Source of the DNA: Acidobacteriota bacterium
GTDB lineage: Bacteria > Acidobacteriota > Thermoanaerobaculia > Gp7-AA8
DNA length: 64,000 bases
NCBI GenBank assembly: GCA_021781455.1
Contig: JAJXWV010000064.1
Location: 1-64,000, forward strand
Reading direction: 5' to 3'
Within the stretch, counting starts at the first letter, position 1. Each line of letters opens with the position of its first letter. A program made the position numbers and the translations under genes. The notes beneath the pieces were generated by a model, which did no database searches, was not told the DNA's origin, and saw only the letters and a list, made by a program, of their open reading frames with translations. Of the stretch, positions 15,938 to 50,999 are shown in pieces.

Positions 15938-16735
15938 TTGCAAGCAGCATTCGCCTCGGTCGAGGCGCGAGGTCCAGCCATCAAGCAAGACCTGCATCTC
16001 CTGAGCGAGCTCATCAAGCGTGACTTCGTTGCCCGGTTCACCGGTTCCGCTCTCGGATGGCTGTGGGCCGTCCTCCAGCCGGCCATTCTGATCGCGGTCT
16101 ACTGGTTTGTCTTCACGTTCATGATCCCGGCACCCCCGCCGGGCGGCGGCGACAAGTACATCTACTTTCTCATGGCCGGCCTGATCCCGTGGATTGCCAT
16201 CAACGAAGGCCTGATGCGATCGCTGACCTCCATCGTCGACAACGCCGCCATGGTTCGCAAACTCCCGCTCCGCAGCGAGCTGCTGGTGATCGTCCCGAAC
16301 GCCTCGGCGCTCATTTTCGAAGCCGTGGCTCTGCTCCTGTTCGCCATCGGTCTCACCATCGTCCGCGGATTCCCGGTGATGGCCTGGATCCTCCCGGTCG
16401 CTCTGGCGATGCAGTTCGCGCTGCAGATGGCTCTGGCGCTCTGTCTCGCGGCTGCCTACGTTTTTCTTCGAGACGTTGGGCAGATCCTCGGATTCGTGCT
16501 CTCGGTCGTTTTCTTCATCAGCCCGATCCTTTATCCTGCCGGAGGTCGATTCGGAAGCATCCTCGCCTGGAACCCACTTACGCCGCTGATCGGGCTCTTT
16601 CGCACTGCGATGCTCGGGACACCGTTACCTGACGCGTCCTCGATCGTCTTCCTTCTGGTCGCGACATGCGCGGCCTCGGCGGCGAGCTTCCTGTTCTTTC
16701 GCCGGGTGCAACCTTTTCTCGTCGACCTGATCTGA
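15938..16735 (+). CDS. O-antigen/polysaccharide ABC transporter permease (Wzm type)
   Basis: A 265-aa ABC-2 type inner-membrane protein with six hydrophobic segments. LLSELIKRDFVARFTGSALGWLWAVLQPA and FFISPILYPAG are family hallmarks of polysaccharide export permeases. TTG at 15938 is the start that gives the normal N-terminus; no ATG or GTG is in register nearby, so the initiation site is uncertain. Its ATPase partner is not adjacent; the best candidate lies at 25324-26547. Confidence 0.88.
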   Translation: MQAAFASVEARGPAIKQDLHLLSELIKRDFVARFTGSALGWLWAVLQPAILIAVYWFVFTFMIPAPPPGGGDKYIYFLMAGLIPWIAINEGLMRSLTSIVDNAAMVRKLPLRSELLVIVPNASALIFEAVALLLFAIGLTIVRGFPVMAWILPVALAMQFALQMALALCLAAAYVFLRDVGQILGFVLSVVFFISPILYPAGGRFGSILAWNPLTPLIGLFRTAMLGTPLPDASSIVFLLVATCAASAASFLFFRRVQPFLVDLI

Positions 16736-20581: not shown

Positions 20582-20608
20582 TTTCCCACTCTCGTAGTCA
20601 GCTGTAAG

Positions 20609-20797: not shown

Positions 20798-20831
20798 TTT
20801 CATTGTCGAGGTCCGGTCCTCAGGAGGTCGT

Positions 20832-25323: not shown

Positions 25324-26547
25324 ATGCAACTGGCAGTGCGTGCGGTCGAGTTGTCGAAACAGTACAGCGTCTACCGGAAACCCGCCGACCGGCTCATCGA
25401 GTTCGTCATGCGGCGCCCTCGTCACTCCGTCTTTTCCGCTCTCGAGGCGGTCACGTTCGAAGTGGAGAAGGGAGAGACCATCGGCATCGTCGGTCAGAAT
25501 GGGGCCGGCAAGAGCACTCTTCTCAAACTCCTCTGTGGTATCGCGCAGCCGACCAGCGGCATGCTCGAGACCCACGGTACGATCTCGTCGATTCTCGAGC
25601 TCGGCACCGGTTTTCATCCAGAATTCACCGGCCGTGACAACGCTGCGCTGAACGCGGCAATCCTCGGCCTCTCTCCGGCGGAGATCCGCCGGCGGCTTCC
25701 CGACATTCTCGAGTTCTCCGAGCTGGGAACGTTTCTCGACCGGCCGGTGAAGACGTACTCATCGGGCATGTACATGCGGCTGGCTTTTTCCGTGGCCGTC
25801 AACGTCGATCCCGACATCCTGGTCATCGATGAAGCGCTGGCCGTCGGCGACGGGCATTTTCAGAAGAAGTGCATGGACAAGATCCGGCAGTTTCAGGAGC
25901 AGGGGAAGACGATCCTTTTCTGCTCTCACGCGCTCTACTACGTGACGCAGATCTGCCGCCGCACTCTCTGGCTCGATCGCGGCTCCCTGGTGCAGTACGG
26001 ACCTTCGGTCGATGTCGTTCACGACTACGAAACGTTCCTGCTGCTGCGAGACCGCGAGCGACCGGCAGCCGAGATTGCCGAGGCGGAGCGGCCGGTTTCT
26101 CCGGTGCGCATTCGCGAGGTCGTGGTCTGCGACGGCAACGGCGAGCCGCGCGATCGTTTTGATCGCGGCGAAGACGTTCAGATTCGGCTGAGGATCGAGG
26201 CCGACAACCCGCGGCAGCCCATTCACGTGCTCGTCGGCGTCAACCGCTCCGCCGATGATCTGCAGTGCTTTGCGGTCGGAACGCACAGTGACGGTCTCAG
26301 CCCGTCTTCGGGAAAGCGCGATTATGAAGTGACGGTCAGGCTGCTCGAGCTTCCGCTCACGCGGGGCGAATACGATGTTTTTGCGTTCGTCGGCGACGAG
26401 AACGCGATGGCAGTCTTCGACCGCCGCGAACTGCATCCAGGGTTCTCGGTGACAGGCGAGCGCTTCGAGGTCGGCGTGATGGAGGTGAAGCACGACTGGC
26501 AGCTCGAACCTGCCGCTACCGTCGTCGCTGGTGCGGTCCGCAGATGA
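25324..26547 (+). CDS. O-antigen/polysaccharide ABC transporter ATP-binding protein (Wzt type)
   Basis: A 407-aa ATPase that powers polysaccharide export. Walker A is GQNGAGKST (57-65), signature YSSGM (145-149), Walker B ILVIDE (165-170), and LELGTGFHPEFTGRDN is the family-typical segment. Residues ~250-400 form the extra C-terminal domain that in Wzt proteins recognises the terminal modification of the glycan. It begins the polysaccharide gene cluster and overlaps the next glycosyltransferase by four bases. Partner permease is probably the gene at 15938. Confidence 0.92.
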   Translation: MQLAVRAVELSKQYSVYRKPADRLIEFVMRRPRHSVFSALEAVTFEVEKGETIGIVGQNGAGKSTLLKLLCGIAQPTSGMLETHGTISSILELGTGFHPEFTGRDNAALNAAILGLSPAEIRRRLPDILEFSELGTFLDRPVKTYSSGMYMRLAFSVAVNVDPDILVIDEALAVGDGHFQKKCMDKIRQFQEQGKTILFCSHALYYVTQICRRTLWLDRGSLVQYGPSVDVVHDYETFLLLRDRERPAAEIAEAERPVSPVRIREVVVCDGNGEPRDRFDRGEDVQIRLRIEADNPRQPIHVLVGVNRSADDLQCFAVGTHSDGLSPSSGKRDYEVTVRLLELPLTRGEYDVFAFVGDENAMAVFDRRELHPGFSVTGERFEVGVMEVKHDWQLEPAATVVAGAVRR

Positions 26548-27581
26548 TCTCGCTGCTCGTCGTCAATTACCGCAGCTGTGCGCTGGCGGCGGAGGCGATC
26601 CGTTCGGCGCGCGCAGCCTCCCTGACTCCGCTGCAGGTCGTAGTCGTCGACAACTCGTGCGACGAGCGGGAAGCGGCCGCGTTGCGGCGGCACTGCGACG
26701 TCCTCATCGCTTCGCCGGTGAATCGCGGTTACGCGGGCGCCATCAACGACGGCCGGCGCCGATGTGACGGCGAGGTCATCGTCGTCTCGAATCCCGACGT
26801 CATTTACGGAGAACGCGCGATCGAAACGCTGGCCGGCACACTGGCCGGCAGGATCACGGTGGCCGGACCGGCATTGTATTGGGACGAGAGTTTCCGATGG
26901 ATCCTTCCGCCGAGCGACCGTCACGCAGGCCTCGGCGAGGTAGATCGCATTCTGGCCAGCCGCTCCGACACGTGGTGGCGCGCGCGCGACCGGCGGCGGA
27001 TCCGTCAGCGCCTCGCGTTCTGGAGCGCTGCCGGGCCGTTGCACGTCCGCGCGATTTCGGGAGCGGTCATGGCCATTCGCGCCGATGCCTTTGATCGCGC
27101 CGGCGGATTCGACGAGAGGTTCACGCTCTACTTCGAGGAGAATGACTTCCTCCGTCGAATCGACGAACGGGGCGAGAGCATCGCCTACGTTCCTGCGGCG
27201 CACTGCCAGCACCTGTACAACCAGAGCGCATCGCAGGAGTCGGCGAAGGCTGGGGCGCTGTATGCGGAATCGGAAGCGAAGTACTTCGCGAAATGGAACG
27301 GTCCGCTTGCAGCGCGTTTCCTGGGGAAACTGCGACGTCCGCCCGGCGAACACCCGGCCGTGCCGCTCCGCGGTGCTCTGGAAGTGCCGGCCGGCCACTT
27401 CGTCGAAATCTCGCCCGATTCGTCGTTCCAGGTCGCAGCCGGGTATTTCCCCGATGGCGCGGGGCGCCTAGACCTTCCACCTGCGGCGTGGGACGCGTTC
27501 CACGGTGACAGGCTCTATCTGCGTACGATCGAGCGAAGTACAGCGCGCGTCGGCACAACCTATGTCAGGTACAAGAGTTGA
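26544..27581 (+). CDS. Family 2 glycosyltransferase
   Basis: A 345-aa GT-A fold enzyme related to rhamnosyltransferases. N-terminal MISLLVVNYRSCALA, VVDNSCD, NRGYAGAINDG and SNPDV are the nucleotide-sugar motifs, and the FDERFTLYFEENDFLRRI segment carries the family acceptor/catalytic ED. The last ~70 residues form a separate beta-rich domain. Start overlaps the Wzt stop (ATGA). Confidence 0.87.
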   Translation: MISLLVVNYRSCALAAEAIRSARAASLTPLQVVVVDNSCDEREAAALRRHCDVLIASPVNRGYAGAINDGRRRCDGEVIVVSNPDVIYGERAIETLAGTLAGRITVAGPALYWDESFRWILPPSDRHAGLGEVDRILASRSDTWWRARDRRRIRQRLAFWSAAGPLHVRAISGAVMAIRADAFDRAGGFDERFTLYFEENDFLRRIDERGESIAYVPAAHCQHLYNQSASQESAKAGALYAESEAKYFAKWNGPLAARFLGKLRRPPGEHPAVPLRGALEVPAGHFVEISPDSSFQVAAGYFPDGAGRLDLPPAAWDAFHGDRLYLRTIERSTARVGTTYVRYKS

Positions 27582-27594: not shown

Positions 27595-29094
27595 ATGAGC
27601 TCGACTAGCGTGTCGGTGCTGGTACCGATGGCAGGCCCGCAGCTCGAGTTCCAGTCGACCGTCAACACGATTCGCGCATACCTGGCGTCGACAGGCCTGG
27701 CATTTGAGGTATTGCCGATCAAACCCACTGCAAGCGAGCGGTACGGCGTTCTATTGCGCCGCGGTGCTGCTGAAGCCACCGGCGACGCGATTGTCATCGT
27801 GGACCCGGATCTGCCGTATCGAGTCGAAGCGATTGGAGACGCCGTGGCTCTCATCGACTCGGCCGCCACGGACATCGTCTTTGGCTCGACGGGTGCCATC
27901 GCTTCGCGGCATCTGCTACTGCGGTGGCTCATCGGCGCGCTGCCTGATCGGACGATCCGCTTGAAGGCATTCTCCCGCGAGGCCGCGCGGCTCGTTCTCG
28001 AAGAGACGAAGCTCGCCGGCGAGGAGTGCGATCTGGAGGTCGCGTTCCTCGCGAACAAGTACGGGTTTCGTGTCGAGACTCTGCACCTCGACCTGCAGCG
28101 CTCAGTCAGCTCGAAGCGAACATTCACCCCGGCGAGCGTCTATGCCGCGATCCGTATCCGGATGATCAATCGCCGCATGGGCTACCGCGCCGGACGCCGC
28201 TGTCCGGTCTGTTTTTCGAACGACGTTCGAACGCTGGCGCAGATCTCGGGAAACGTAGTGAGGATCTGCTCGCGCTGTAAGTGTCGGTATCTAAACGATT
28301 TCACCAGGAGCAGCGGTGTGGGTCCGCCACGGCGCGCCTTGCGTGCGCACCCTCCGGCCGGCGAGGGCGAGCCGCCGGTCGGGAAGCACTCGGATCGCGC
28401 GCGGCAGAAGACCAGCGGCCGGCGGTTGTCGACTTTACGGCGGCATCTGGCGCCGCGTGCACGCGTGCTGGAGGTCGGTGTGCGGGATGGGAGTTTCGGA
28501 GCCGCCGCGGGGAGCGAGTTCGAGTACGTCGGCATCGATTACGCCATGGCGGCCGTCCGCAACGCCCGAGCGCGTGGTCTGGAGGTGTACGCCGCGGCTT
28601 TGTCGAACTTCGTCAACACCGGGCGCTCGTTCGACGCGGTCGTCCTGCACCACGTCTTCGAGAACATGCCTGACCCGCACGACGCCCTGGCACGGATCAA
28701 GGATCTCCTTCGGCCCGGGGGGTTTCTCTTCCTGACGACGTTCGATACCGAGGGGCTGCTCTACGTCGTTACCGAGAAGAAACTGTTTGCGCAACTCTTC
28801 GGGCAACACCTGGTCCTCTACTCGCGGTCGGCGCTGATCGAACTTCTGGAGCGCTCGGGATTCGAGATCGACACGATTGGTCCCGATTTCGAATATCGCG
28901 ACCATCGCCTCGTGCGCCACTGGATCGGGTCGCACTGGCCGGGGCTGGCACCGCTCGTCAGCGCGATCATCCGGCTCCTACCCGACCCGATGCTCGTCAG
29001 TTCGGGGTCGATCCGGATCATTGCGCAGAGACGCGCGGGCGCACCCATCGACACGCGCGTGGTGCGATCGGCGGAACCGACGCATGCCCGCTGA
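27595..29094 (+). CDS. Glycosyltransferase-like / zinc-ribbon / SAM methyltransferase fusion
   Basis: A 499-aa multidomain protein. Residues 5-190 resemble a GT2 domain of the polyprenyl-phosphate type (SVSVLVPMAG, IVIVDPDLPYR, and a second half like LKAFSREAARLV). Residues 203-230 have CPVC and CSRCKC, a probable zinc ribbon. From ~290 comes a class I methyltransferase: motif I VLEVGVRDG, then YVGIDYAMAAVRNARARGLEVY and FDAVVLHHVFENMPDPHDALARI. It lies in the export gene cluster, so it may add and methylate a sugar at the chain end. No direct evidence for the substrate. Confidence 0.75.
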   Translation: MSSTSVSVLVPMAGPQLEFQSTVNTIRAYLASTGLAFEVLPIKPTASERYGVLLRRGAAEATGDAIVIVDPDLPYRVEAIGDAVALIDSAATDIVFGSTGAIASRHLLLRWLIGALPDRTIRLKAFSREAARLVLEETKLAGEECDLEVAFLANKYGFRVETLHLDLQRSVSSKRTFTPASVYAAIRIRMINRRMGYRAGRRCPVCFSNDVRTLAQISGNVVRICSRCKCRYLNDFTRSSGVGPPRRALRAHPPAGEGEPPVGKHSDRARQKTSGRRLSTLRRHLAPRARVLEVGVRDGSFGAAAGSEFEYVGIDYAMAAVRNARARGLEVYAAALSNFVNTGRSFDAVVLHHVFENMPDPHDALARIKDLLRPGGFLFLTTFDTEGLLYVVTEKKLFAQLFGQHLVLYSRSALIELLERSGFEIDTIGPDFEYRDHRLVRHWIGSHWPGLAPLVSAIIRLLPDPMLVSSGSIRIIAQRRAGAPIDTRVVRSAEPTHAR

Positions 29095-30076
29095 GCCGCT
29101 CACGATTCGGGCGTACAAGCCCGGCGACGAGAGTGCGATCCTCGATCTCTTCCGCCGCGCGTTCGGTGTCGAGCGGAGCATCGCCCACTGGCGCTGGGAG
29201 TTTCTGGAGAACCCGTTCGGCGCGGAACACATCACGGTTGCGGTGGACGACGGGGGAAGGCTCGTCGCGCATTTCGCGGGCTATCCGGTGCCCTTCCGGC
29301 GCGACGGCGCGGATCTCCTCGCTCATCAGATGGTCGACATCATGACCGATCCATTGGTCCGGCACATCGGCCGCGGGCCGACGAGCGTCTTCGTGCGGTG
29401 CATGGCGCACTTCTACGAGACGTTCTCGGAAGGGAAGATCGCCTTCAATTACGGCTTCGACGTCGGTAGCGGGCAGACGCTGTTTCTTCGGTACCTGCGA
29501 GGTCAGGTCGTCGAACCGGTTGGCTACCGGGCGCGCGACCTGATGGCGAACCCGCTCAGACCGGCCAATCGATGGCAGCGGCGCTTGCGCGGCTTTCAGT
29601 TCGAGCTCGTGAAGCGCGCGACGGATGAATGGGACGATCTCTTCGAACGGAGCTGGCGCGACTACGGCCAGCTCGTGCGGCGCGATCGCGCATACGTGCA
29701 GTGGCGTTATCTCGACTGTCCCGATATCCCGTACATCGTGGTGGCCGTGCGCCGGTGGAAGCGGCTCGTCGGATGGATGGTCCTCCGGATCCGTGACCAA
29801 AGGCTGAGCCTGGGAGATGCCCTGTTCGATCGTCGCCATCCGGAAGCTCTCGAGCTTGTCTTGAGGCACGTGGTCCCGCAGTACCCGGTGAGCCTTCTCG
29901 ACGGCTGGTTCTCGCTACGGCCTGCATGGTTCAGCACCCTCCTCGACAACCTCGGAATGACGAGCAGCGACGAGCCTCAGGGGCTCTCGATGATCGCCGC
30001 AACCTTTACCGAGCCCGGAGCGATCGAGCACCTCCGCCAGACCTACTACACGATGGGCGACAGCGATCTGTTCTGA
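29084..30076 (+). CDS. GNAT-family acetyltransferase
   Basis: A 330-aa protein. N-terminal LTIRAYKPGDESAILDLFRRAFG and HWRWEFLENPFG resemble the GNAT enzymes found in exopolysaccharide loci. The central part carries YVQWRYLDCPDIPYIVVAVR, and the second half repeats an acetyltransferase-like segment. ATG at 29084 gives an 11-nt overlap with the previous gene. Probably modifies a sugar amine or hydroxyl of the exported glycan. Confidence 0.72.
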   Translation: MPAEPLTIRAYKPGDESAILDLFRRAFGVERSIAHWRWEFLENPFGAEHITVAVDDGGRLVAHFAGYPVPFRRDGADLLAHQMVDIMTDPLVRHIGRGPTSVFVRCMAHFYETFSEGKIAFNYGFDVGSGQTLFLRYLRGQVVEPVGYRARDLMANPLRPANRWQRRLRGFQFELVKRATDEWDDLFERSWRDYGQLVRRDRAYVQWRYLDCPDIPYIVVAVRRWKRLVGWMVLRIRDQRLSLGDALFDRRHPEALELVLRHVVPQYPVSLLDGWFSLRPAWFSTLLDNLGMTSSDEPQGLSMIAATFTEPGAIEHLRQTYYTMGDSDLF

Positions 30077-30562: not shown

Positions 30563-31227
30563 GCGAAGACGAGGTTCACGTTCGTATCTCGTCGCGATTT
30601 TCGACGGCGCTGCTGCGCCGGTACGTCCGCTCGAAGCTGTCCACCGACCCGCTCTACGCCGCCGTGGCCGACAGGCTGCGCGATCATGGCCACCCCGTGG
30701 TCGACGTCGGCTGCGGTATGGGGCTGACCGAGTGTTATCTGCGTGAGCACGGGTACTCCGGCCCGATCGCCGGCGTCGATTACGACGAGCGAAAAATCGC
30801 GGAGGCCTCGAGGGTGTGCGCTTCGTACGCGGATCTGGAGTTCGCGATTGCCGACGCCGTGGGTGCCATTCGGCGCGGCTCCAGTGTGCTGCTCCTCGAC
30901 GTCCTTCACTATCTCGGCTCGCGAGAGCAGGTGCAGCTTCTCGAGTCCTGCGCGGAGGCAGTTCCTGTCGGCGGCGTCGTCATCATCCGGGACGCGGTGC
31001 AGGACGGCAGCTGGCGTTACCGCCTGACGTATTTCGAGGAGACCTTCGCCCTCACGGTGCGCTGGTTGAAGGCTGCGCGGTTGAACTTTCCACGCCGGGA
31101 GCTCGTCGTCGAGCCGTTCGCCAGGCGCGGTTTCGACGTGGAGGTGACGCCGCTCTGGGGACGGACGCCGTTCAACAACTATCTCTTCGTTTTCAGGCGC
31201 ACCGCATCTGGAAGGACGAACGAGTAG
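30559..31227 (+). CDS. Class I SAM-dependent methyltransferase
   Basis: A 222-aa enzyme. VVDVGCGMGLTECYL is motif I, GPIAGVDYDERKIAEA the acidic-loop region, and SSVLLLDVLHYLG motif post-II. The GTG start overlaps the response-regulator stop by four bases. Substrate unknown. The last 49 bases overlap the convergent deacetylase gene. Confidence 0.82.
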   Translation: MSEDEVHVRISSRFSTALLRRYVRSKLSTDPLYAAVADRLRDHGHPVVDVGCGMGLTECYLREHGYSGPIAGVDYDERKIAEASRVCASYADLEFAIADAVGAIRRGSSVLLLDVLHYLGSREQVQLLESCAEAVPVGGVVIIRDAVQDGSWRYRLTYFEETFALTVRWLKAARLNFPRRELVVEPFARRGFDVEVTPLWGRTPFNNYLFVFRRTASGRTNE

Positions 31228-31934
31228 CCGCGGCTTCGTGCCGCGGCGATCACCGCTTCGATCGCCTCGAGAGACCACGGGCGGCCCTGATGCAGAACGA
31301 CGATCGCGCCGGGCTCCAGCCCGGCCTCGATCGAACGCACGATCCCGGCGACGTCGCTCTTCACTGCGTCGAAGCCGCGGCTGCTCCAGCCGATCAGGCG
31401 CATGCCGCGTTTGCGGAGAACGGGGTGTACGAACGGATTCTTCATCCCGACCGGCGCGCGGAACAACGTCGGCGCCGTGCCGAGAATCGAGCTCAGGACG
31501 TCATCGCATTGCTCGATCTCGCGGCGGACCGAACCCGGCGGGAGACACCAGAAGGAAGCGCTGGGATGCGTTTGCGAATGATTGCCGATCTGGTGACCGT
31601 GCCGGGCGATCTCCGCCACCAGGTCCGGCGCCGCTTCCGCGAGCGTGCCTTTGACGAAGAAAGTGGCTCGAATGCCTCGGCTTTCGAGCAAGTCGAGGAG
31701 AGCGGGCGTGTCCTCAGTCGGCCCGTCGTCGATGGTCAGCCACAGCTCCTTTGCGGCGGCGTCGAAAGCGGTGAAGACCGGGCCGAGCCACTGCGAGCTC
31801 GGCCGCAGGGTCGGGTACAGAAGCAGAGCGTGCGAAAGGGCCAGGATGCCAAGGCTCGGCCAGGGCCAGCGCCAGACGAAGACGAGGAAGACGACCGGCG
31901 CGGCACAGGCGAACGTCAGGATGGCTCGGCGCAT
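31179..31934 (-). CDS. NodB-family polysaccharide deacetylase
   Basis: A 251-aa protein with two N-terminal hydrophobic stretches, so probably membrane-bound facing the periplasm. Catalytic motifs are present: TIDDGP (motif 1), HGHQIGNHSQTH (metal-binding His pair), RAPVG (motif 3) and VVLHQG near the end. It removes acetyl groups from amino sugars. It starts inside the preceding membrane protein gene (19-nt overlap). Confidence 0.88.
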   Translation of the reverse strand: MRRAILTFACAAPVVFLVFVWRWPWPSLGILALSHALLLYPTLRPSSQWLGPVFTAFDAAAKELWLTIDDGPTEDTPALLDLLESRGIRATFFVKGTLAEAAPDLVAEIARHGHQIGNHSQTHPSASFWCLPPGSVRREIEQCDDVLSSILGTAPTLFRAPVGMKNPFVHPVLRKRGMRLIGWSSRGFDAVKSDVAGIVRSIEAGLEPGAIVVLHQGRPWSLEAIEAVIAAARSRGYSFVLPDAVRLKTKR

Positions 31935-32473
31935 CGCTTCTCCATGTCGCGCACCCGGTCACGCAGCAGCCACATCATGACTGCGGCCGCAGCGTTCAGC
32001 ACGGCCGCGACGAGCGATGCGATCGCCATTCCCTTCGCGAAGCCGTGCTGCGTCGCGAACCATGCCGACGCCGCGAGAAATGCCGCCATCGTGGCGAACG
32101 AGTTCGCCGGGACGTTGTCGCGATCGTGTCGCCGACGGATACGCCGCCACAGCGGCATCACGACGAGACCGACTGAGTAGAACGGGATCTGCAGGACGAT
32201 CGGCGTGGCGATCGCAGCGATCACGAGGGCCAGCGGAAGCGGTATCCAGAAATGCAGAATGGCGGCACAGTAGCCGGTCGTGGCCACCAGCACCCAGATG
32301 GCCACGGTGAACATCTCGAACGTGTTCTGGCCGCGGTCGATGGCCAGCATGCCAGGCACGGGCGGCTCGGCGCGGCTCATCGCCGTGCGCGTGTAGCCGA
32401 CCAGGCGAAAGAGTGCGAGGTTCGACCGCGACGGGAGTGATCGGGCGGTGGGTCGATTCGGAATTCCGGTCAC
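31916..32473 (-). CDS. Four-helix membrane protein, unknown function
   Basis: A 185-aa protein with about four hydrophobic segments (such as TVAIWVLVATTGYCAAILHFW and SLVAAVLNAAAAVMMWLL). GTG at 32473 is chosen because it overlaps the upstream stop as GTGA and has GAGGAG seven bases ahead; an internal ATG (MSRAEPP) is possible. It sits between an acyltransferase and a deacetylase, so a role in lipid or polysaccharide modification is likely but unproven. Confidence 0.62.
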   Translation of the reverse strand: MTGIPNRPTARSLPSRSNLALFRLVGYTRTAMSRAEPPVPGMLAIDRGQNTFEMFTVAIWVLVATTGYCAAILHFWIPLPLALVIAAIATPIVLQIPFYSVGLVVMPLWRRIRRRHDRDNVPANSFATMAAFLAASAWFATQHGFAKGMAIASLVAAVLNAAAAVMMWLLRDRVRDMEKRCAEPS

Positions 32474-33384
32474 GGCCGGCTCTCCTCGAACACCGGCTCG
32501 AAGGTGAACCACTGGAACCATGAGTCGGCAATGACGCGTTCCAGCTGGACGGCCCAGCGCGTCACCGCGTTCTGCAGGATCTCATCGCGGTTGTGCCGGT
32601 CCCGATCGACGCGGATCGGTTCGCAGGTGACGAGCCGATAGCGCCGCCTTCCGGCGCGGATGATGAAGATCGGATAGATCGGCACGCCGGCGGCCATGGC
32701 CAGCGCGAACGGCCCGGTCGGCAGCTGCGTGACTTTTCCGAACAGGACGGCATTTGCCGAGGCGACGCCGGGTGTGACGCGATCGCCCTGGATGGCCACG
32801 ATCTGTCCCTGGCGCAAGCCGTGAAGGAGGTCGAGCGCGAGCTCGTGTGCGCGGGTGTTGAAATTGATGTTTACGGCCTCGCCAACTGTTCGCCCGTGCA
32901 GGTCCTCCTCGAATTCGCGCGTCTGTGGATCGACTTCGGGCGCGCGGACCATCAGCAGTTTTTGCGCCGTAGTCTCGCCGAACATCTGTGCGCCGAGATC
33001 GTAGCTGCCCATGTGCGCGGTGAGCATGATCGCTCCGCCGGAGCGTGCCTGGAGGTCGGCGAAATGCTCGTGACCGATGAATTCCCAGTCCGGCGTGACG
33101 CGCGTCTCCTGCAGGCGGGCGTTGTCGGTGATGGTCCAGGCGTAGTTCCAGAAGACGCGCCAGGTGCGGAAGAAGTTCGTCAGGGCCAGCGAGCCGGGTT
33201 TGATCGTGCGCAGGTTGTGCATCACACCGCGCCGGACGGGTCCCCAAAGCAGGAAGAACAGAGACCACCAGGCCATGACGATGGGCTCGATCCAGAGGGG
33301 CACGTTGAGCACGGCCCAATGCAGGAACTGGCGCCAGAAGACGCCGCGCACGAGAAATCGACGCCACCAGGCGGGCTCACTCAC
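32470..33384 (-). CDS. LpxL/HtrB-like lysophospholipid acyltransferase
   Basis: A 304-aa inner-membrane enzyme. The catalytic H-x4-D variant is in MLTAHMGSYDLGAQ, and VAIQGDRVTPGV matches the family's second block; PIYPIFIIRAG is the third. GTG at 33384 (VSEPAWWRR) is preceded by TATCAT (33396-33391) six bases upstream. It would acylate lipid A or a related lipid, supporting an outer membrane. The following genes on this strand are tightly overlapped. Confidence 0.85.
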   Translation of the reverse strand: MSEPAWWRRFLVRGVFWRQFLHWAVLNVPLWIEPIVMAWWSLFFLLWGPVRRGVMHNLRTIKPGSLALTNFFRTWRVFWNYAWTITDNARLQETRVTPDWEFIGHEHFADLQARSGGAIMLTAHMGSYDLGAQMFGETTAQKLLMVRAPEVDPQTREFEEDLHGRTVGEAVNINFNTRAHELALDLLHGLRQGQIVAIQGDRVTPGVASANAVLFGKVTQLPTGPFALAMAAGVPIYPIFIIRAGRRRYRLVTCEPIRVDRDRHNRDEILQNAVTRWAVQLERVIADSWFQWFTFEPVFEESRP

Positions 33385-34562
33385 CGCTGGATGATATCGT
33401 CGAGCTTCGCGTCCAATGAAGGAAGTTGTGAGCGGAGCAGCTCGAACAACGCGCTGGTCATCAGCTCGTCGTCTCCCGGATAGGTGGGGATGAAGCGCAG
33501 TGGAAAGCGGGAGAAGATCTCGGCGTCGCTGCGGCGGCGCATCTTCTGAACGGCGGCACGTTTTTCCGCCAGCCGCGACTCGTTCCGCAGAATCCAGTCG
33601 AAGGCGCGGAACTGCATCGTGGTCAGGGGGTCGTCGATGGCCACCAGGGGCTCGGGCCCGCGAATCCTGCGGCGCAGGCGGGCGCCGAGGTGCCGGCGGG
33701 CGGCCTGCGATCGCGAAGACGGCACTCCCATTTCGCGAGTCAGTTCCGAGGCGCGAGGATTGCGCGTGGTTGCGTAGTGGTGAAGCCGGTGCAGGTAGGT
33801 CAGGAAGATCGAGCCGGCCGCTTCGCGGAGATTCTCGAAGTTCTTGATGGCGGTCTGCATGGCGTTGCGCTCGAAGAGCACGCCCCGTTCGAAACTGCCG
33901 AGCCGGTCGCTCGTCGCGGCAGAGGCATGCCTGACGATCGCGCGCGGCTCGTAGACGGCGCGTTTTCCGGCGATCCACGTCCGCCAGCCGAAGTCGACGT
34001 CTTCCAGGTAGGCGAAGTAATCGCCGTCGAAACCACCGAGCTCGAGCAGCGGCTCACGTCGCGAGATCATGTTGCCGCCGCAGGCGAAGAGAATCTCCCC
34101 GCCGGGAGGAGGCTCGGGCCTGGCGTCCAGCGGCATGCGGAAGCCGTTCTGGAAGGCGTGGCCGTCGAAGGTCACGAACCCGCCGATGAAATCGATGCGG
34201 CGCCCGGAAACGTCGACGATCTTTCCGCCGACGGAAACGACGTCCGCGGGCGCCTCGTCGATGGCTCGGACGATCGAGGCCAGCCATCCCGGTTCGGTGA
34301 CGGCGTCGTTGTTCAGGAAAACGACGTTCCGCGCACGTGAGGTGGAGAGGGCCGCGGCGATGCCGCCGGTGAAGCCTCGATTCTCGCCGAGCGGAAGAAA
34401 ACGGATGCCTGGATACCGGGAGGGGATCTCCGCGACGGAGCCGTCCACCGAGCCGTTGTCCACCACCGAGACCACGGATCCGTACACCTCCACGAGCTGC
34501 GGCTCGAGAGAGGCCAGGCAGGCCAGCGTGTCGCGCTTGCCATTCCAGTTGAGAATGATCAC
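33381..34562 (-). CDS. Family 2 glycosyltransferase (rhamnosyltransferase-like)
   Basis: About 393 aa. VIILNWNGKRDTLACL, VVDNGSVDGSV, NRGFTGGIAAAL, VFLNNDA and the later FDGDYFAYLEDVDFGWR are all GT2 motifs, the last containing the ED pair. The start is unclear: GTG at 34562 is the first normal start codon, but similarity to the family begins two codons earlier, and a CTG at 34583 follows a GGAGG. The C-terminal ~150 residues are Arg-rich and helical. Confidence 0.82.
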   Translation of the reverse strand: MIILNWNGKRDTLACLASLEPQLVEVYGSVVSVVDNGSVDGSVAEIPSRYPGIRFLPLGENRGFTGGIAAALSTSRARNVVFLNNDAVTEPGWLASIVRAIDEAPADVVSVGGKIVDVSGRRIDFIGGFVTFDGHAFQNGFRMPLDARPEPPPGGEILFACGGNMISRREPLLELGGFDGDYFAYLEDVDFGWRTWIAGKRAVYEPRAIVRHASAATSDRLGSFERGVLFERNAMQTAIKNFENLREAAGSIFLTYLHRLHHYATTRNPRASELTREMGVPSSRSQAARRHLGARLRRRIRGPEPLVAIDDPLTTMQFRAFDWILRNESRLAEKRAAVQKMRRRSDAEIFSRFPLRFIPTYPGDDELMTSALFELLRSQLPSLDAKLDDIIQR

Positions 34563-34579
34563 GTCGACGGTGGTCGCGC

Positions 34580-35803
34580 TCAGGAACGGCCTCCCATACG
34601 GCGCTTGAGCCGGTCGATGATCGACGGCGGGTGCTCGGGGACCTGCAGGCGCACCGCGAACTTTTCCTTCGATTCGTCGATCCGCGGCGCGCGGCAGAAC
34701 TCCAGCAGCGGCGCCAGCGACTGCGACCACTGATGGTCCTGCACGAAGGCCCGCGTTGCGGAGACCATCGCCTCGTGCCTGGTGTGTTCCGTCAGGATCG
34801 ACACGATGCCGCCGGCGAAAGCCTCGGGAGAGTCATCGCGCACGACCACGCCCGCTCCATACCGCGAGAGGATCTCGTCGGTTCCCGGAGCCGAGCTCGT
34901 GACGATCGGCAGCGCGCCCCAGAGGTAGTCGTAAATCCTTGTGCGCATCGCGAGGTCGGTCTCGATCGACTGCGGGAAGGTGAGCAGCGCCAGGGAGTGA
35001 CGATCGAAGAATTCCCCGCGCCTGTCGTAGGGCGTCCACGGCACGAAGTCGACGAAGTCGTATCTCTTCGACCTCACATGCTCGATCGCCTCTGCGGCTT
35101 TTCCCTGAGGCGTCAGGTCGGGATTCGGATGACGGGTGAAGGTCAGCGTCATCGCGGGGAGCGTCTGCCGGGCGATGGCCACCGCTTCGATCGCCGTGAT
35201 GGGATCGTACCAGTCGTAGATTCCGCCGAAGAGAACGGCCGGCCGGTCGAGGTCGCGCACCACGCGAGAACGCAGCGGCTGCACGCCGAAGGGAGCGACG
35301 CGCAGCAGGTGATCGAGGTGAGGATCCGCTTCGAAGGCGAGCGGGTTGAGCCGGCCGGCGGCGATCATCGTGCCGAGGTAGAAGAGGCGCTGCGCCTCCG
35401 AAGCGCAGAGGAAGAAATCGCCATGAGCGAGGGAGTTGAGAAGAGTGGCGTGATCATGGTCGAACACTTCGCCGCCCCGGCTCTCGAAGTAGTGCAGATT
35501 CTCGATGATGAAGGGATCGTAAAGATCGACGGCCGCCGGGATGCGCTGGGCATGTGCGAAGACGTCGTTCGCGGCGTGTCCCTGCACGACGAGGACATCG
35601 CTCCGGCCGCTGAAGTCCCGGAGGTTCTCCGGAGAGATCGCTCCGCAGCGGCAGCCTTCCAGCACCCCGCCGTCGGGCGAAAGGAGGGCCACCTCGTGGC
35701 CGTCGCGGCGCAGCGCGGCGGCCATTTCGACGAAGCGGATGCCGATGCCGGCTGGCTGGCGATGCCCGAGCGGCTCGGGGCAGACGAGAAGAACCCGGCT
35801 CAA
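34580..35803 (-). CDS. GT-B glycosyltransferase (group 1-like)
   Basis: A 407-aa enzyme. N-terminal VLLVCPEPLGHRQPAGIGIRFVEMAAAL is a GT-B donor-side start. The C-terminal half has VLFGGIYDWYDP and the LWGALPIVTSSAPGTDEILSRYGAGVVV segment, equivalent to the nucleotide-binding region of group 1 transferases. Overlaps the upstream gene by four bases. Acceptor unknown. Confidence 0.82.
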   Translation of the reverse strand: MSRVLLVCPEPLGHRQPAGIGIRFVEMAAALRRDGHEVALLSPDGGVLEGCRCGAISPENLRDFSGRSDVLVVQGHAANDVFAHAQRIPAAVDLYDPFIIENLHYFESRGGEVFDHDHATLLNSLAHGDFFLCASEAQRLFYLGTMIAAGRLNPLAFEADPHLDHLLRVAPFGVQPLRSRVVRDLDRPAVLFGGIYDWYDPITAIEAVAIARQTLPAMTLTFTRHPNPDLTPQGKAAEAIEHVRSKRYDFVDFVPWTPYDRRGEFFDRHSLALLTFPQSIETDLAMRTRIYDYLWGALPIVTSSAPGTDEILSRYGAGVVVRDDSPEAFAGGIVSILTEHTRHEAMVSATRAFVQDHQWSQSLAPLLEFCRAPRIDESKEKFAVRLQVPEHPPSIIDRLKRRMGGRS

Positions 35804-37710
35804 CCCCGGCTCCGCACTTTCTCGATCATGTTGTGCAGTTTCCAGGTGCGCGAGGCATAGATCATGTCCAGCATCGACTGCAGGCGACGGATCTCGGCGT
35901 ACAGCGCCTGGATGGTGGTCTGCATGTCACGGCGGCCGGCGGTGGCCGCTGCGTGCTCTTCCTCGAGCCTGGCCAGGGCCACGGATTTTTCGCTGATCTC
36001 GTGCGCAGCCCGGTCGAGTGCGGCCTGCGCTCCGCCCTGAAAGCCTTCCAGCTCGCGCATGCGCGTCACGTTCCGCACCGCGTCCTCGTGCAGTGCCTGC
36101 AGCTTCGCCAGAAGGTCGGCCTTGTCGCGCTCGAAGCGCTCCACGCTGATCTCGAGGTGGTGCGCCCGCCCGCGCTGCTCGACGACATCGCTGTTGGCCG
36201 TTCCGAGGCGATCCTTCTGCCGTTCGAAAGCATTGGCGAAGACGTTCGGATCGAGCAGCGTCTGATGTTTTCGCCAGACTTTGAGCTTGGCTTCACGGAA
36301 TGCGGTTGAGCCTTCCGGAGCCGCCAGGGTGATGGATGTGCCGGCCTGGACATGGCGGATTTCGCAGGTGATTCGCGGCACGTGCACGAAGGTTCCGCGG
36401 CCGGAGAGGCGGATGAGGAAGTCCCAGTCCTCGAAGAGGTCGAACTGCGGGTCGAAGCCGCCCAGGGCCAGGAAGTCGTCGCGGCGGACGAGCAGCGTCG
36501 GCAGCGGGATGTAGTTGTCGATGAGGAGCAGATCGCGATCGTAGTCGTCGCCGAAGAGCCTGAGCCGCGCCGTGGTTTCCATCGTTCCCGACTCGCCGAT
36601 GTGCACGAATGCCGAAACGGCGTCGGCGTAGCAGGCGGCAACGGGTGAGGCCACGGCGGCCCGGGACAGCACGTCGAGGTGAGGGGGATAGTAGATGTCG
36701 TCGTCGTCGAGGAAGGCGATGAAGGGATTGGCCGCCGCCTCTACCCCGCTGTTCATGGCTCGCGAGCGTCCGCGGGGCGACTCGTGCTGGACGAGCTTCA
36801 CTCCGGTGCCGCAATCGGGAGTGGCACCACCATCGTTCACGACCAGGACTTCGGCGGGGTAGCCGGTGGCGCGGATCGACTGCAGCGCTTCGCGGAGAAG
36901 GGCCGGCCTGTCCTTCGTCCGAACGATGACGCTGATCGGCAGTGGCTCGCGTTCGACGGACAGAGCGCCGCGCGCATCGCCGACCGCATGCTGGAGCGCG
37001 CTGAACGGCTGAGTGCGGAGCGACGCCAGAGGAAGCGTGTAGTAGGCCTCCGCATACTGAACGGACGATGGGAGGGTCATCGACCGGAACGCGTTCAGTC
37101 CACGGGCGAAGGCCACGTAGTCGCGGATCTCGAGCTGTGACGCGTGCGCGGCGATGGCCTCCCATTTCACGCCTGCGACATCGGTGATGTCGACGAGCGT
37201 GTTCGGCCGGAGCGGCTGGCTGACCTCGTAGAAGGCGATCTGCGCCACGGCCAGTTCGGCGAACAACGCCTCATCACTCTGGATGAGCGTGCAGAATTCG
37301 GAGGCCAGCGCGAGATGGTCGGGGTGAATCTCGATGGGGCTCGGAACCAGGATGAGGTCGGGATGGAACGACTGCAGCGCCTCGCGCAACCGGTCGCGGA
37401 GCTCGCCGCCGCGAGCTTCCAGATGCCGGTCGGGAAAGCGCAGGAAATCGACGTCGGCGATTCCCACGACCGCCAGCCCGCGGGAGCACTCCTCCTCGCG
37501 CCGGCGACCGTAGTCGGCGCGGTCGGCCGATGCGATCGCTTCGGTGCCGTCGGTGGCGACGACGGCGCGCACTTTCCGTCCTTCGCGGGTGTGCTGGGCC
37601 AGCAATCCGCCGCAGCCGATCACTTCGTCGTCAGGATGAGGAGCGAGGACGAGCAGCCGTTCGCCGCGAAGCTGGGACGCTGTAAACGGGATCGCCTCGG
37701 CCTCGTGCAT
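35800..37710 (-). CDS. PIG-L deacetylase / GT2 glycosyltransferase fusion with coiled-coil tail
   Basis: A 636-aa fusion. Residues 17-220 are a LmbE/PIG-L de-N-acetylase: APHPDDEVIGCGG (zinc His/Asp) and HPDH (129-132). Residues 257-490 are a GT2 domain: PISVIVRTKDRPALLREAL, VVNDGG, RSRAMNSGVEAA, DDDD (336-339) and FEDWDFLIRL. Residues ~505-625 are a coiled coil ending in IYASRTWKLHN, a tail seen on other cell-surface glycosyltransferases. ATG at 37710 is supported by a perfect TATAAT ten bases upstream. It would deacetylate and glycosylate the same glycan. Confidence 0.85.
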   Translation of the reverse strand: MHEAEAIPFTASQLRGERLLVLAPHPDDEVIGCGGLLAQHTREGRKVRAVVATDGTEAIASADRADYGRRREEECSRGLAVVGIADVDFLRFPDRHLEARGGELRDRLREALQSFHPDLILVPSPIEIHPDHLALASEFCTLIQSDEALFAELAVAQIAFYEVSQPLRPNTLVDITDVAGVKWEAIAAHASQLEIRDYVAFARGLNAFRSMTLPSSVQYAEAYYTLPLASLRTQPFSALQHAVGDARGALSVEREPLPISVIVRTKDRPALLREALQSIRATGYPAEVLVVNDGGATPDCGTGVKLVQHESPRGRSRAMNSGVEAAANPFIAFLDDDDIYYPPHLDVLSRAAVASPVAACYADAVSAFVHIGESGTMETTARLRLFGDDYDRDLLLIDNYIPLPTLLVRRDDFLALGGFDPQFDLFEDWDFLIRLSGRGTFVHVPRITCEIRHVQAGTSITLAAPEGSTAFREAKLKVWRKHQTLLDPNVFANAFERQKDRLGTANSDVVEQRGRAHHLEISVERFERDKADLLAKLQALHEDAVRNVTRMRELEGFQGGAQAALDRAAHEISEKSVALARLEEEHAAATAGRRDMQTTIQALYAEIRRLQSMLDMIYASRTWKLHNMIEKVRSRG

Positions 37711-37720
37711 GCTGCGCGGG

Positions 37721-37726
37721 ATTATA
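37721..37726 (-). promoter_or_regulatory. -10 element TATAAT ten bases before a start codon
   Basis: A consensus TATAAT on the - strand ends 10 nt before ATG 37710 with no Shine-Dalgarno. It would drive the - strand polysaccharide operon (37.7 to 31.2 kb). Confidence 0.65.
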
Positions 37727-37778
37727 GGAGCGTTGCCACTGTGCTCGACTTGACGGATCATTGCCCCCGGGCTCCAGA

Positions 37779-38837
37779 GTGAGTGGTTCGGAACAGACAT
37801 CCTCGGCAGTCGGATCGAATGACCGGCTCCTCAGCGACATCGTCGCCCTGATCCAGCAGCTGACAGGGCGCGATGTTCGCAGCGGCAGCCGCGCCGACCT
37901 GTTCGCCGGCGCGTTTTCGGCTCTGTTCGAGTGCATGCCCTTCGACGTGGCCGTGGCCGTCATGCTGGAGCAGAACCTCGACCTCTACGTTTCTACGCGG
38001 GCCGACGGAAACTCGTTGGTGGACGAGTCGCTGATCAACCGGGTCCGCGAGACCCTGCAGAAAGTCATTCCGGCCTCATTTGCAGCCACGGACATCGTGG
38101 TCATGTCCGAGAGCCACGATCTTCCCGCTGGCAGCAGCAGTCAGAGTCTGCGTCATCAGGCCTACGCGATCCTGACCCTGGACGGGCGGACGGCCGGCCT
38201 CCTGGTGGTCTATCGCGATGATCCGCCCTTCAGCCCCGGACACGAACAGGTCGTGGAGATCTTCACGGCCCAGATGTCGTTGCTGATGGCCAATCTCAGC
38301 GCCCGCGAGCAGATCCTCAATCTCGCCGACACCGATTACCTGACCGGCATCTGGAACAAGCGATCGCTGCGGCGGCAGCTCCTTCAGGAGATGGAACGCG
38401 CACGCACGTTGAAAGTGCCCCTGGCCGTTCTCGTGCTCGACATCGACGATTTCAAGCAGATCAACGACACGCTGGGCCACACCATCGGCGACGTCGTGCT
38501 GTCGGAGTTCTGCGGCGCGGTTCGTGAGTCCCTGCGGCCGCCCGATTTCTTTGCGCGGTTCGGCGGCGACGAGTTCGTGGTCATCCTTCCGCACACGGAC
38601 CGCGACGGTGCCGAAGCCGTGGCCGAGCGGATCCTGGAGAGGGTGCACGGCCTGACGATCATCACGGACGAGGAAACCGCGGTGCGTTGCTCGGTGTCGA
38701 TCGGCGTGGGGACGTTCCGGGTTCAGGACAGCAGCGCGAACGACATGCTGCGGCGCGCCGACGAGCGCCTGTACATCGCCAAGCGCCGCGGGAAGAATCG
38801 AGTGGTGGCCGACGACGTTCGCGGCGAAGAGCGATAG
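37779..38837 (+). CDS. Diguanylate cyclase with N-terminal GAF-like domain
   Basis: About 352 aa. The N-terminal ~165 residues look like a GAF sensor (FECMPFDVAVAVMLEQ, AYAILTLDGRTAGLLVVYR), joined by a helix to a complete GGDEF domain: DTDYLTGIWNKRSL, LDIDDFKQINDTLGH, RFGGDEFVVILP. An RPPD stands five residues before GGDEF, i.e. the product-inhibition I-site. It synthesises c-di-GMP. GTG at 37779 is favoured; an in-frame TTG lies at 37761. It is divergent from the PIG-L/GT2 operon, so c-di-GMP may link to surface glycan. Confidence 0.9.
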   Translation: MSGSEQTSSAVGSNDRLLSDIVALIQQLTGRDVRSGSRADLFAGAFSALFECMPFDVAVAVMLEQNLDLYVSTRADGNSLVDESLINRVRETLQKVIPASFAATDIVVMSESHDLPAGSSSQSLRHQAYAILTLDGRTAGLLVVYRDDPPFSPGHEQVVEIFTAQMSLLMANLSAREQILNLADTDYLTGIWNKRSLRRQLLQEMERARTLKVPLAVLVLDIDDFKQINDTLGHTIGDVVLSEFCGAVRESLRPPDFFARFGGDEFVVILPHTDRDGAEAVAERILERVHGLTIITDEETAVRCSVSIGVGTFRVQDSSANDMLRRADERLYIAKRRGKNRVVADDVRGEER

Positions 38838-49541: not shown

Positions 49542-49995
49542 TTTTTATTACAGACGTCTCTAATTGAGCCGTGAAACGTCCGAGCATCGCTTTCTGACCT
49601 TCGATGACCTTGATCGCGTCGCCGATCGTCTGAGGGAACGCCTTCCTACACTGCCGGCGGCTGAAGGCCATCTGAGCCGCGAGAGAGGAGAAGCCGGGCT
49701 GTCCCGCGGCGGCCGATGCGCTCGCGAGCTCCATGTAGAGCGCGGCGATCTTCGACTGCTGCTCAGGCGTGATCGTGCCGCGCCGCTTGTTCGCCTGGCG
49801 CCGCTTCTCGTGAGCGAAGCTCGTGAAGCCGAGGTGCTCGAAGCGGCGCATCAGTCGATCGAATCCTTTTTCGTCGAGGTCGCGCGCCGACGCTACGCCG
49901 GCTTCGGCATGCAGGATCGCCCGGTAGCTATCCTCGTCGAGCGCGAGACGGCTCTTGGCGACGTGGACGAGGGCGATCTGCGCGTGAGTGATCAT
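49531..49995 (-). CDS. GemA-like phage regulatory protein (DUF1018)
   Basis: A 154-aa protein. MITHAQIALVHVAKSRLALDEDSYRAIL and the SARDLDEKGFDRLMRRFEHLGF segment match the Mu gp16/GemA family that modulates host gene expression. The ATG overlaps the DUF5131 stop by four bases. It is the last gene of the early operon and ends beside the phage end repeats. Confidence 0.75.
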   Translation of the reverse strand: MITHAQIALVHVAKSRLALDEDSYRAILHAEAGVASARDLDEKGFDRLMRRFEHLGFTSFAHEKRRQANKRRGTITPEQQSKIAALYMELASASAAAGQPGFSSLAAQMAFSRRQCRKAFPQTIGDAIKVIEGQKAMLGRFTAQLETSVIKNFR

Positions 49996-50999
49996 CGCCG
50001 GAATTCCTTCCACTCGCGGCCGTCGAGAAGGCAACCTGCCACTTTCTTGCCGACGCGGGTGATACCGATCGCGTCGAGGGAGTGGCCCGGCGGCGGCACA
50101 TCCCCAACCGGAAAGAACCGACCATCCTGCTCGAGCCAGTGGGAAATAGGGGAAAGATCGGATCGGTCGAGCGTGCGTCGCCACTCGCCCCACTGCTTGA
50201 AGAAGAACGGCACGTGGGCGGCCTGGCACTGATCACGGAGGGAGCGTGCCCAGTCGGGATGCATCGGGCGGGCGTGCGGGCCTGACTCACCGCCGACGAT
50301 CACCCAATCGACACGCGGGACGTAGTAGCACGGCCGCCCCATGTCGGTCTGCTCTCCCGTGAGCGCATCGACCTGATAGAAACCATCGGGCGCGTCAGCG
50401 TGCGAGTCGACGTCGACATATCGCAGGTTGACAGCGCTGAGCAGCGGCTCAAGCGACAAGAAACGGACGACCGCGGGAATCCGGAGAACGTGGCCGAGCC
50501 GCTGCTCAAGTGTCTCCTGATTCTCTGCGCTGCCGCCGATCCAGACGTGCGGGGGTGCGATGTCGTCGTCGATCCACGCGTCGAGCATGACGCAGCCGCG
50601 GGAGTACTCGCGCACGGCTTCGAGGCGCCGGCGGAAGTTCTCCGGCCGTTTTGTCAGCAGCAACCAATCGAGTGCGGTGCAGTCCTCGATGTCACAGAGC
50701 AGGCCATAGAGCCACGGGATCGGCACCTCATCGTCGAGCCAATCGCCGAGCGAGAGCGGGAAGACCCGCCGACGAACGCCTTCACGCTTCGCGGCCTCGT
50801 TCCACTTGTACGGGAGATTTCGATACGACTCAGCAGCGAGCACGCGCTCAGCGCCTTCTCCCCAATGGCCGAGGACCTTCGGATTGCGTTTGCTCTGCGT
50901 CTCCGCATAGCAGTGATCGCACCCGGCGCTCACGTGCCGGCAGCCGCGCCAAACGTTGTAGGTTTGATCAGTCCACTCGATCTTCGAGTTCTCACCCAT
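49992..50999 (-). CDS. DUF5131 (phage Gp37/Gp68) family protein
   Basis: A 335-aa protein. IEWTDQTYNVWRGCRHVSAGCDHCYAE carries Cys20, Cys27 and Cys30, the radical-SAM-like C-x6-C-x2-C signature of this family; WVIVGGESGPHARPMHPDW and VPFFFKQWGEW are further family blocks. Common on phages; the enzymatic role is unknown. Cargo or early function in this prophage. Confidence 0.85.
   Translation of the reverse strand: MGENSKIEWTDQTYNVWRGCRHVSAGCDHCYAETQSKRNPKVLGHWGEGAERVLAAESYRNLPYKWNEAAKREGVRRRVFPLSLGDWLDDEVPIPWLYGLLCDIEDCTALDWLLLTKRPENFRRRLEAVREYSRGCVMLDAWIDDDIAPPHVWIGGSAENQETLEQRLGHVLRIPAVVRFLSLEPLLSAVNLRYVDVDSHADAPDGFYQVDALTGEQTDMGRPCYYVPRVDWVIVGGESGPHARPMHPDWARSLRDQCQAAHVPFFFKQWGEWRRTLDRSDLSPISHWLEQDGRFFPVGDVPPPGHSLDAIGITRVGKKVAGCLLDGREWKEFRR

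Follow-up and report, generated by a model that had tools for sequence, protein, structure and literature searches.

A PIG-L de-N-acetylase fused to a GT2 glycosyltransferase and a coiled coil in a putative surface-glycan gene cluster of an acidobacterium

The window analysed here is the whole stretch of 64,000 nucleotides from contig JAJXWV010000064.1, part of the Acidobacteriota genome of a soil Acidobacterium. Its minus strand carries at 35800-37710 a single open reading frame (ORF) coding for a protein of 636 amino acids that combines a PIG-L de-N-acetylase, a GT2 glycosyltransferase (GT-A) and a C-terminal coiled coil. The original prediction had claimed this fusion on one chain, and it is borne out by the single ORF, by two Pfam domains scoring above cut-off (PIG-L, PF02585, residues 50-166, E 4.2e-28, 98.8 bits, cut-off 28.2; Glycos_transf_2, PF00535, residues 290-410, E 3.9e-14, 53.4 bits, cut-off 23.3) and by long helices in the structural model. 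The longest frame, 35800..37800 on the minus strand, has 666 codons counted from its first ATG. The alignments of full-length homologues start for the most part at residues 23-33, in a few cases at 12-16 or further on, which makes M31, at position 37710, the likely translation start, as in the original prediction; M14 is a less likely alternative. The gene and its parts, numbered in the 666-codon frame, are the following.

35800..37710 (extendable to 37800), minus strand: PIG-L–GT2–coiled-coil fusion, from ORF, Pfam, alignment and AlphaFold2
37036..37665, minus strand: predicted PIG-L de-N-acetylase domain, residues 46-255, with H55, D57, D58, H159, D161 and H162, from Pfam, fold and conservation
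36346..36939, minus strand: predicted GT2 domain (GT-A fold), residues 288-485, with D323, D365-D368 and E457-D458-W459, from Pfam, alignment and fold
35851..36249, minus strand: predicted coiled coil, residues 518-650, from long helices in the model, a heptad test and a weak NCBIfam SMC match (E 7.7e-4)
35803..35862, minus strand: conserved C-terminal tail resembling I-Y-x-S-R-T-W-K-[LV]-H...GR, from comparison of tails across loci

Both PIG-L motifs, HPDDE and HPDH, are present in the window protein, and by analogy with MshB-type structures H55, D58 and H162 would be the zinc ligands. Across 36 aligned fused proteins there is little or no variation at the PIG-L motif residues or at D323, D365-D368 and E457-D458-W459 of the GT2 head. 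H55, D57 and D58 are kept in 38/39 fused rows, the sole exception (L108) being a sequence cut at its start, and in 15/15 rows from split loci, where PIG-L and GT2 are coded apart; D161 and H162 are kept in all 39 fused and all 15 split rows. Residue 159 is His in 27 of the 39 fused rows and in the 15 split ones. The 12 fused rows with Thr or Ser at this position retain the remaining zinc-motif residues.

The AlphaFold2 model of the fusion, built on a 38-row alignment, has a mean pLDDT of 83.8 and a pTM of 0.56, which makes the arrangement of the domains relative to each other untrustworthy. In it a PIG-L domain and a GT-A domain are followed by a pair of long helices (488-554 and 561-635 in M31 numbering). 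The PIG-L fold matches BshB (6p2t), LnmX (5bmo) and diacetylchitobiose deacetylase (3wl4) with Z 23.6-24.0 over 198-222 residues, and the GT2 fold matches a chondroitin polymerase domain (2z86, Z 24.3) and AvpGT (9jn3, Z 23.5). The solved chains closest in sequence are archaeal diacetylchitobiose deacetylases for the PIG-L part and AvpGT (9jma) for the GT2 part. Diacetylchitobiose deacetylase, BshB and LnmX share fold and zinc motif with the PIG-L head, but the solved structures are of enzymes with one domain, whose substrates are different or unknown. Family match, motifs and model fold together identify the first head as a predicted PIG-L/LmbE zinc de-N-acetylase, and PF00535, the DxD and ED motifs and the modelled GT-A fold do the same for the second as a glycosyltransferase. 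Loss of the zinc ligands, which the original prediction had set against itself, appears not to have occurred, judged by motif conservation and fold match. The protein stays below the NCBIfam equivalog cut-offs of BshB1 (73.6 of 182.5 bits), BshB2 (63.2 of 195.25) and MshB (29.1 of 224.35), so far that a role in thiol biosynthesis was rejected; identity with the mycofactocin glycosyltransferase MftF was also rejected (75.5 of 280 bits).

All 60 related genomes have some match to the fusion. The survey of the architecture that had been proposed together with the original prediction finds that 42 of them have both domains in a single frame, a count read from the match table: 36 with a single unbroken spanning match, four with two pieces and two cut at a contig end within GT2. 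The two domains lie apart in 17/60, and G015 is undecidable as its contig ends. In fetched stretches the frames were verified from stop to stop. Across the phylum 199 genomes were sampled, 20 in the same class and 179 in other classes; a spanning match was found in 1/179 of the latter (G075), among the matches listed, in a scan where weaker matches are incompletely listed and at most six candidates were scored per genome. Same-frame or spanning matches (E up to 1e-25, among the matches listed) were found in 4/398 genomes on the Pseudomonadota side, in the phylum of Marinomonas, and in 6/198 on the Desulfobacteraceae-phylum side, these six including the sampling centre itself (G239) and one genome cut at a contig end (G645). 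The PIG-L–GT2 pairing is maintained across a bacterial class and scattered, sparsely, in other phyla. Some fusions outside the phylum have extra modules: PIG-L+GT2+RgpF+HAD (L193), PIG-L+GT2+GT2+GT4 (L195) and PIG-L with three GT2 stretches (L197). In a Desulfobacterales metagenome-assembled genome (MAG), at L008:8001-9752, the PIG-L and GT2 genes are in frame with one stop codon between them.

On the PIG-L tree, fused proteins are intermingled with split ones. Family f4 (9 rows, support 100/99) mixes both, and 6/7 f5 rows (support 99/95) form one group of fused and split proteins, L123 falling outside. A minimum of 8 changes between fused and split is needed on 54 non-paralogue rows. A tree placing all fused PIG-Ls in one clade was rejected (approximately unbiased test, p-AU 1e-64), and a single fusion event with it; L109 was omitted from the tree and from this test. 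The PIG-L paralogues are weakly placed, with long branches and poorly supported forks. The GT2 partner lies at most 6 kb from PIG-L in 10/15 split loci, and none was seen within the fetched stretch of L118, L141, L145, L152 and L153. In certain split families the PIG-L-linked GT2 is fused instead to the next glycosyltransferase, GT2b, and in L140, L142 and L151 PIG-L, GT2 and GT2b are joined on one chain. Pairwise distances of PIG-L, GT2, GT4, GT2b, GNAT and Wzt correlate with r 0.78-0.93, uncorrected for the species tree, as expected for genes inherited together. What varies is the packaging; the components are stable.

The heptad periodicity of residues 515-655 is equalled by 0.04% of 5000 shuffles; taken separately, the first helix reaches a value as high in 0.14% of shuffles and the second in 5.4%. 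The fused proteins of f1 (where the C-terminus lies within the stretch), of f10 and of part of f5 end with a coil and then a motif resembling SRTWKLH...GR. A tail of this kind is found on the stand-alone PIG-L in 5/15 split loci and in none of the other 10: it is the same in L147 and L150, similar in L118 (SKRWKLH), and a related SWR motif occurs in Marinomonas (L032 and L044) and also terminates two fusions elsewhere (L009, L194). In genus g19 tandem repeats of 63 bp, coding for 21 amino acids or three heptads, lengthen the coil.

L130, 10529-11031: 63-bp repeats, 8 copies up to the contig end
L132, 8765-8929: 63-bp repeats, 2.6 copies

Such repeats were not found in the coil of the window gene nor in that of L138, and were rejected as a trait of the coil in general.

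The genes around the fusion include further glycosyltransferases, acyltransferases and the two components of a Wzm/Wzt ATP-binding cassette (ABC) transporter.

34580..35803, minus strand: GT4-like glycosyltransferase, next gene of the operon; Pfam matches below cut-off, homologue in 33/54 PIG-L loci
33381..34730, minus strand: GT2 termed GT2b, starting at either 34562 or 34730; some other families have its homologue joined to the PIG-L-linked GT2
32470..33384, minus strand: LpxL/PatA-like acyltransferase (Lip_A_acyltrans, E 9.8e-11); among the 54 loci in f1 and f2 only
31916..32521, minus strand: small protein without Pfam match that on inspection looks like a membrane protein; 14/16 f1 loci have a homologue, the other two being short contigs
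31179..31934, minus strand: NodB-type polysaccharide deacetylase (Polysacc_deac_1, E 2.1e-30); among the 54 loci in f1 and f2 only
29084..30076, plus strand: tandem-GNAT acyltransferase (Acetyltransf_9), recurrent partner of PIG-L
26544..27581, plus strand: GT2 termed GT2a, directly after Wzt, from Pfam and locus comparison
25324..26547, plus strand: Wzt ATPase whose C-terminal part is a carbohydrate-binding domain (Wzt_C, 42.4 bits against a cut-off of 30.4)
15938..16735, plus strand: Wzm permease (ABC2_membrane, E 2.7e-09)
37761..38837, plus strand: GGDEF protein (diguanylate cyclase-like) with intact GGDEF motif, divergent and optional neighbour

Because the minus-strand genes of this run overlap or nearly touch, their arrangement is consistent with one operon. 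The f1 order on this strand is fusion, GT4, GT2b, LpxL-like, small protein and NodB; the run faces MT2, REC, GNAT, MT, GT2a and Wzt, with GGDEF and TIM on the opposite side. The window Wzt lies about 10 kb from the fusion on the other strand. The 8.6 kb between Wzm and Wzt (16767-25136, plus strand) code for an FG-GAP protein, a protein without Pfam match and a PKD-domain protein of 1434 amino acids.

Among 54 PIG-L loci the GT2 partner was found in 49, GT2b in 45, GT4 in 33 and GT2a in 27, along with GNAT in 32, Wzt in 17, TIM in 16, NodB and LpxL-like genes in 15 each, GGDEF in 12 and Wzm in 4; these counts are lower bounds, as flanks differ (up to about 10 kb), and the GT2 profiles may cross-match. 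L119, L120, L146 and L154, with no PIG-L at the set score, stand outside this set, as does L007, a MAG labelled Acidobacteria gp7 that is the same genome as L109.

The original prediction had also argued from a neighbour making cyclic di-GMP (c-di-GMP) and from NodB as a second deacetylase in the operon, and these two arguments are its weakest part. A divergent gene with an intact GGDEF motif is indeed present, but the link is weak: it adjoins the fusion in 11/16 f1 loci and is missing from five that keep the fusion (L105, L107, L108, L109, L113), which leaves c-di-GMP control unsupported as a conserved trait; among the 54 loci it occurs outside f1 in f2 only. A GGDEF gene is also found in the Desulfobacterota-side stretch L197 (132 bits). 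NodB, with the CE4-like motifs DDGP, HSQTH and RAPVG, truly lies in the operon, but being confined to f1 and f2 (15/54 loci) it falls outside the conserved core and was rejected as a part of it.

The tandem GNAT is a protein of 330 amino acids (PF13527) with a match in 54/60 relatives. Outside the phylum its profile scores above 60 bits in 9/16 PIG-L loci and in 1/51 loci that have a related GT2 but lack PIG-L (Fisher p 2.4e-6, a test that ignores relatedness). This count uses stretches of at least 8 kb and controls whose GT2 scores above 100 bits, leaves out L062 and adds 14 stretches, two of them too short (L204, L216): PIG-L loci L206, with GNAT, and L205 and L207, without it, and nine controls, none with GNAT. 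A first count had given 8/13 PIG-L loci and 1/49 controls, with 13/14 loci with PIG-L and 49/56 without it reaching 8 kb or more; its controls included L062, an Acidobacteriota locus without such a GT2, and six loci whose GT2 scored weakly. The rows from the two phylum-wide scans alone give 6/12 and 0/10 (p 0.015). A GNAT homologue is present elsewhere in the genomes of f2 and f6, in 6/7 f5 and in 10/11 f7 genomes. In Marinomonas GNAT is fused to Wzt: at L044:3638-5965 the chain combines ABC_tran, Wzt_C and Acetyltransf_9 (25.1 bits, cut-off 25), and at L032:5107-7878 it is seen by a custom profile (78 bits) and not by Pfam. In both cases the Wzt–GNAT chain adjoins a stand-alone PIG-L. The GNAT model, of modest quality (pLDDT 63.4), resembles the amine-acylating tandem GNATs Eis2 and N-myristoyltransferases (Z 13-14.6), a modelled likeness of fold that is no proof of function. 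The recurrence of a tandem GNAT beside PIG-L suggests that the amine freed by PIG-L is acylated anew.

Deacetylation and sugar transfer very probably belong to one pathway, because PIG-L and GT2 stay coupled in evolution, fused or split. With moderate confidence, we favour the reading that the fusion helps to assemble a glycan exported by Wzm/Wzt, both transferring a sugar and de-N-acetylating an N-acetylhexosamine (HexNAc) of this glycan, after which the amine would probably be re-acylated. The observations at its base are the fusion, the intact motifs, the folds, the recurrent fusion and splitting and the linkage to glycosyltransferases, GNAT and Wzt; the cytoplasmic site, the substrate, the order of steps, the re-acylation and the complex are what we infer. 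The fusion would be a cytoplasmic, two-headed protein of an ABC-transporter-dependent surface-glycan pathway. Its GT2 head would add a sugar to the lipid-linked glycan and its zinc PIG-L head would remove the N-acetyl group from a HexNAc of that same glycan, most simply from the residue just added by the fusion GT2 or by the neighbouring GT4 or GT2b. The coiled coil and conserved tail might anchor the protein in a membrane-side assembly complex, and the tandem GNAT would probably acylate the freed amine before or at export by Wzt, achieving an N-acetyl swap.

The original prediction had held that both reactions take place on the same substrate: one pathway is very probable given the long coupling of PIG-L and GT2, but a shared chain is no proof of a shared sugar. 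The partly deacetylated glycan that it had proposed may be an incomplete account, since the recurrent tandem GNAT suggests re-acylation. Its main inference is plausible and has gained support, and the finding is real, conserved and coherent.

By analogy, the fusion may work like three known systems. In ABC-dependent O-antigen systems some proteins have one module and others several, with the terminator on a coiled-coil ruler (PMC11231755). WbdD of Escherichia coli O9a, WbbB of Klebsiella pneumoniae O12 and ORF6 of O7 are described there as coiled-coil proteins whose catalytic modules may be joined or separate, as PIG-L and GT2 are, and with Wzm and a Wzt carrying a carbohydrate-binding domain nearby, as in the window. 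Their modules are a methyltransferase and kinase or a transferase of 3-deoxy-D-manno-oct-2-ulosonic acid (Kdo), whereas those of the fusion are PIG-L and GT2; the words 'deacetyl' and 'PIG-L' have no occurrence in the main text of that paper. In Pseudomonas, WaaG hydrolyses UDP-GalNAc, and GalN(L-Ala) is part of the mature lipopolysaccharide (LPS) core; deacetylation by DnpA and then addition of alanine by another transferase is the order of events proposed there as speculation (PMC10579960). WaaG, a GalNAc transferase, DnpA/PA5002, a PIG-L protein, and PA5003 recall the fusion loci in having PIG-L and GNAT within a glycosyltransferase cluster, where the two genes adjoin (PMC8005017, Table 1). 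PA5003 is likened to the window GNAT by annotation (GNAT in P. syringae), the alanyl transferase being left open by those authors. The Pseudomonas module differs in its separate proteins, its other glycosyltransferase (WaaG) and its place in LPS core synthesis instead of a Wzm/Wzt cluster. For the Caulobacter holdfast, deacetylation by HfsH followed by acylation by HfsK, a tandem GNAT and c-di-GMP effector, is suggested speculatively (PMC5362036), a similar pairing on what would be one surface glycan, here too with a c-di-GMP connection; in the passages concerned HfsH is called a polysaccharide deacetylase, not a PIG-L protein, with no mention of a glycosyltransferase fusion.

Several points weigh against the assembly reading. 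The conserved PIG-L histidine H159 is replaced in the 12/39 fused rows mentioned above. Wzt is found in just 17/54 loci and Wzm in 4/54 within the flanks of up to about 10 kb, and the Wzm of the window is 20 kb distant. GNAT is missing from 7/16 PIG-L loci outside the phylum and from the fetched stretch around the fusion in f2, f5, f6 and f7, and the Fisher test of its association with PIG-L ignores relatedness. The Pseudomonas precedent is itself unproven, as deletion of dnpA reportedly leaves LPS synthesis unaffected (PMC10579960). A fusion can mirror co-regulation without a common substrate, and activity, substrate and glycan structure are here predictions from sequence.

A closer parallel to WbdD would make the fusion a terminator and ruler: its N-terminal heads would place a de-N-acetylated and afterwards acylated sugar on the glycan as a cap, the coil would set a minimum chain length and the Wzt carbohydrate-binding domain would recognise the capped end for export. 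The WbdD layout of N-terminal catalysis, coiled coil and C-terminal region (PMC11231755) is matched, the cluster has a Wzt_C domain above cut-off, three-heptad repeats lengthen the coil in g19, and f1 coils differ mostly by heptad steps, the stretch from GT2 motif to tail Trp measuring 166 to 201 residues, with 9/14 of these lengths falling in the same class modulo 7 (p 2e-4, taking the rows as unrelated). That test was chosen after the lengths had been seen and ignores relatedness; the class count is 12/28 over all families, and 7/25 for the control distance from PIG-L to GT2. Against this proposal also stand the absence of repeats from the window gene and the L138 coil, the 10/15 split PIG-Ls without tail, the several split ones without coil, and a 20-residue tail stretch of the window protein no more amphipathic than shuffles (hydrophobic moment equalled by 0.73 of them; one sequence, one index). 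The fusion was not filed as a terminator because its tail failed this simple test, and we regard the role as rather unlikely. A variant appears more doubtful still, in which the fusion would add and de-N-acetylate a terminal HexNAc at the distance set by the coil, GNAT would acylate it and the Wzt domain would read the N-acyl amino sugar as export signal. If the ruler reading were true, an amino-sugar cap would join the methyl, methylphosphate and Kdo terminators of PMC11231755.

PIG-L could alternatively deacetylate a nucleotide- or lipid-linked monosaccharide before assembly, the fusion merely channelling donor or primer to GT2. Its relatives BshB and MshB act on small glycosides and its fold is equally near BshB and the diacetylchitobiose deacetylases (Z 23.9-24.0), yet the BshB1, BshB2 and MshB equivalog cut-offs are far off, and the several glycosyltransferases and Wzt nearby speak more for action during assembly than before it; a precursor role seems to us improbable. 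Still less credence, and very little, is given to a glycolipid like glycosylphosphatidylinositol (GPI) or phosphatidylinositol mannosides (PIM), with PIG-L acting on a GlcNAc-inositol lipid that the LpxL/PatA-like enzyme acylates. It would fit the PIG-L family name and the best NCBIfam match of that acyltransferase, a phosphatidylinositol mannoside acyltransferase at 44.5 of 209 bits (below cut-off), but the gene is limited to 15/54 loci in f1 and f2. Inositol-1-phosphate synthase (PF01658) has no match in the genome (0/1, against 6/14 control genomes), and the GPI/PIM reading was rejected as the main one, inositol uptake being still conceivable.

In the open PMC literature, which covers few subscription papers, none of the titles and opening abstract lines among the results listed describes a PIG-L–GT2 fusion. 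The architecture has a practical use: a PIG-L fused to one glycosyltransferase and tied in several phyla to one acyltransferase family, and partly to Wzt, names an acceptor system to test, and the fusion is a tractable two-domain protein for the acceptor question.

Two other parts of the window drew attention. An ORF at 268-1059 (plus strand) with three stretches of the PF04060 Fe-S cluster domain precedes the gene of a complex I 30-kDa subunit (Complex1_30kDa, 1127-2119, plus strand), which itself has a C-terminal PF04060 domain; this arrangement looked unusual for complex I genes. A Mu-like transposable phage or its remnant lies at about 49990-60300, with the following genes.

49992-50999: DUF5131
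52973-53596: Mu Gam-like
55052-56080: AAA_22 ATPase
56111-58405: rve transposase
59094-60302: repressor-like protein with helix-turn-helix (HTH) and Peptidase_S24

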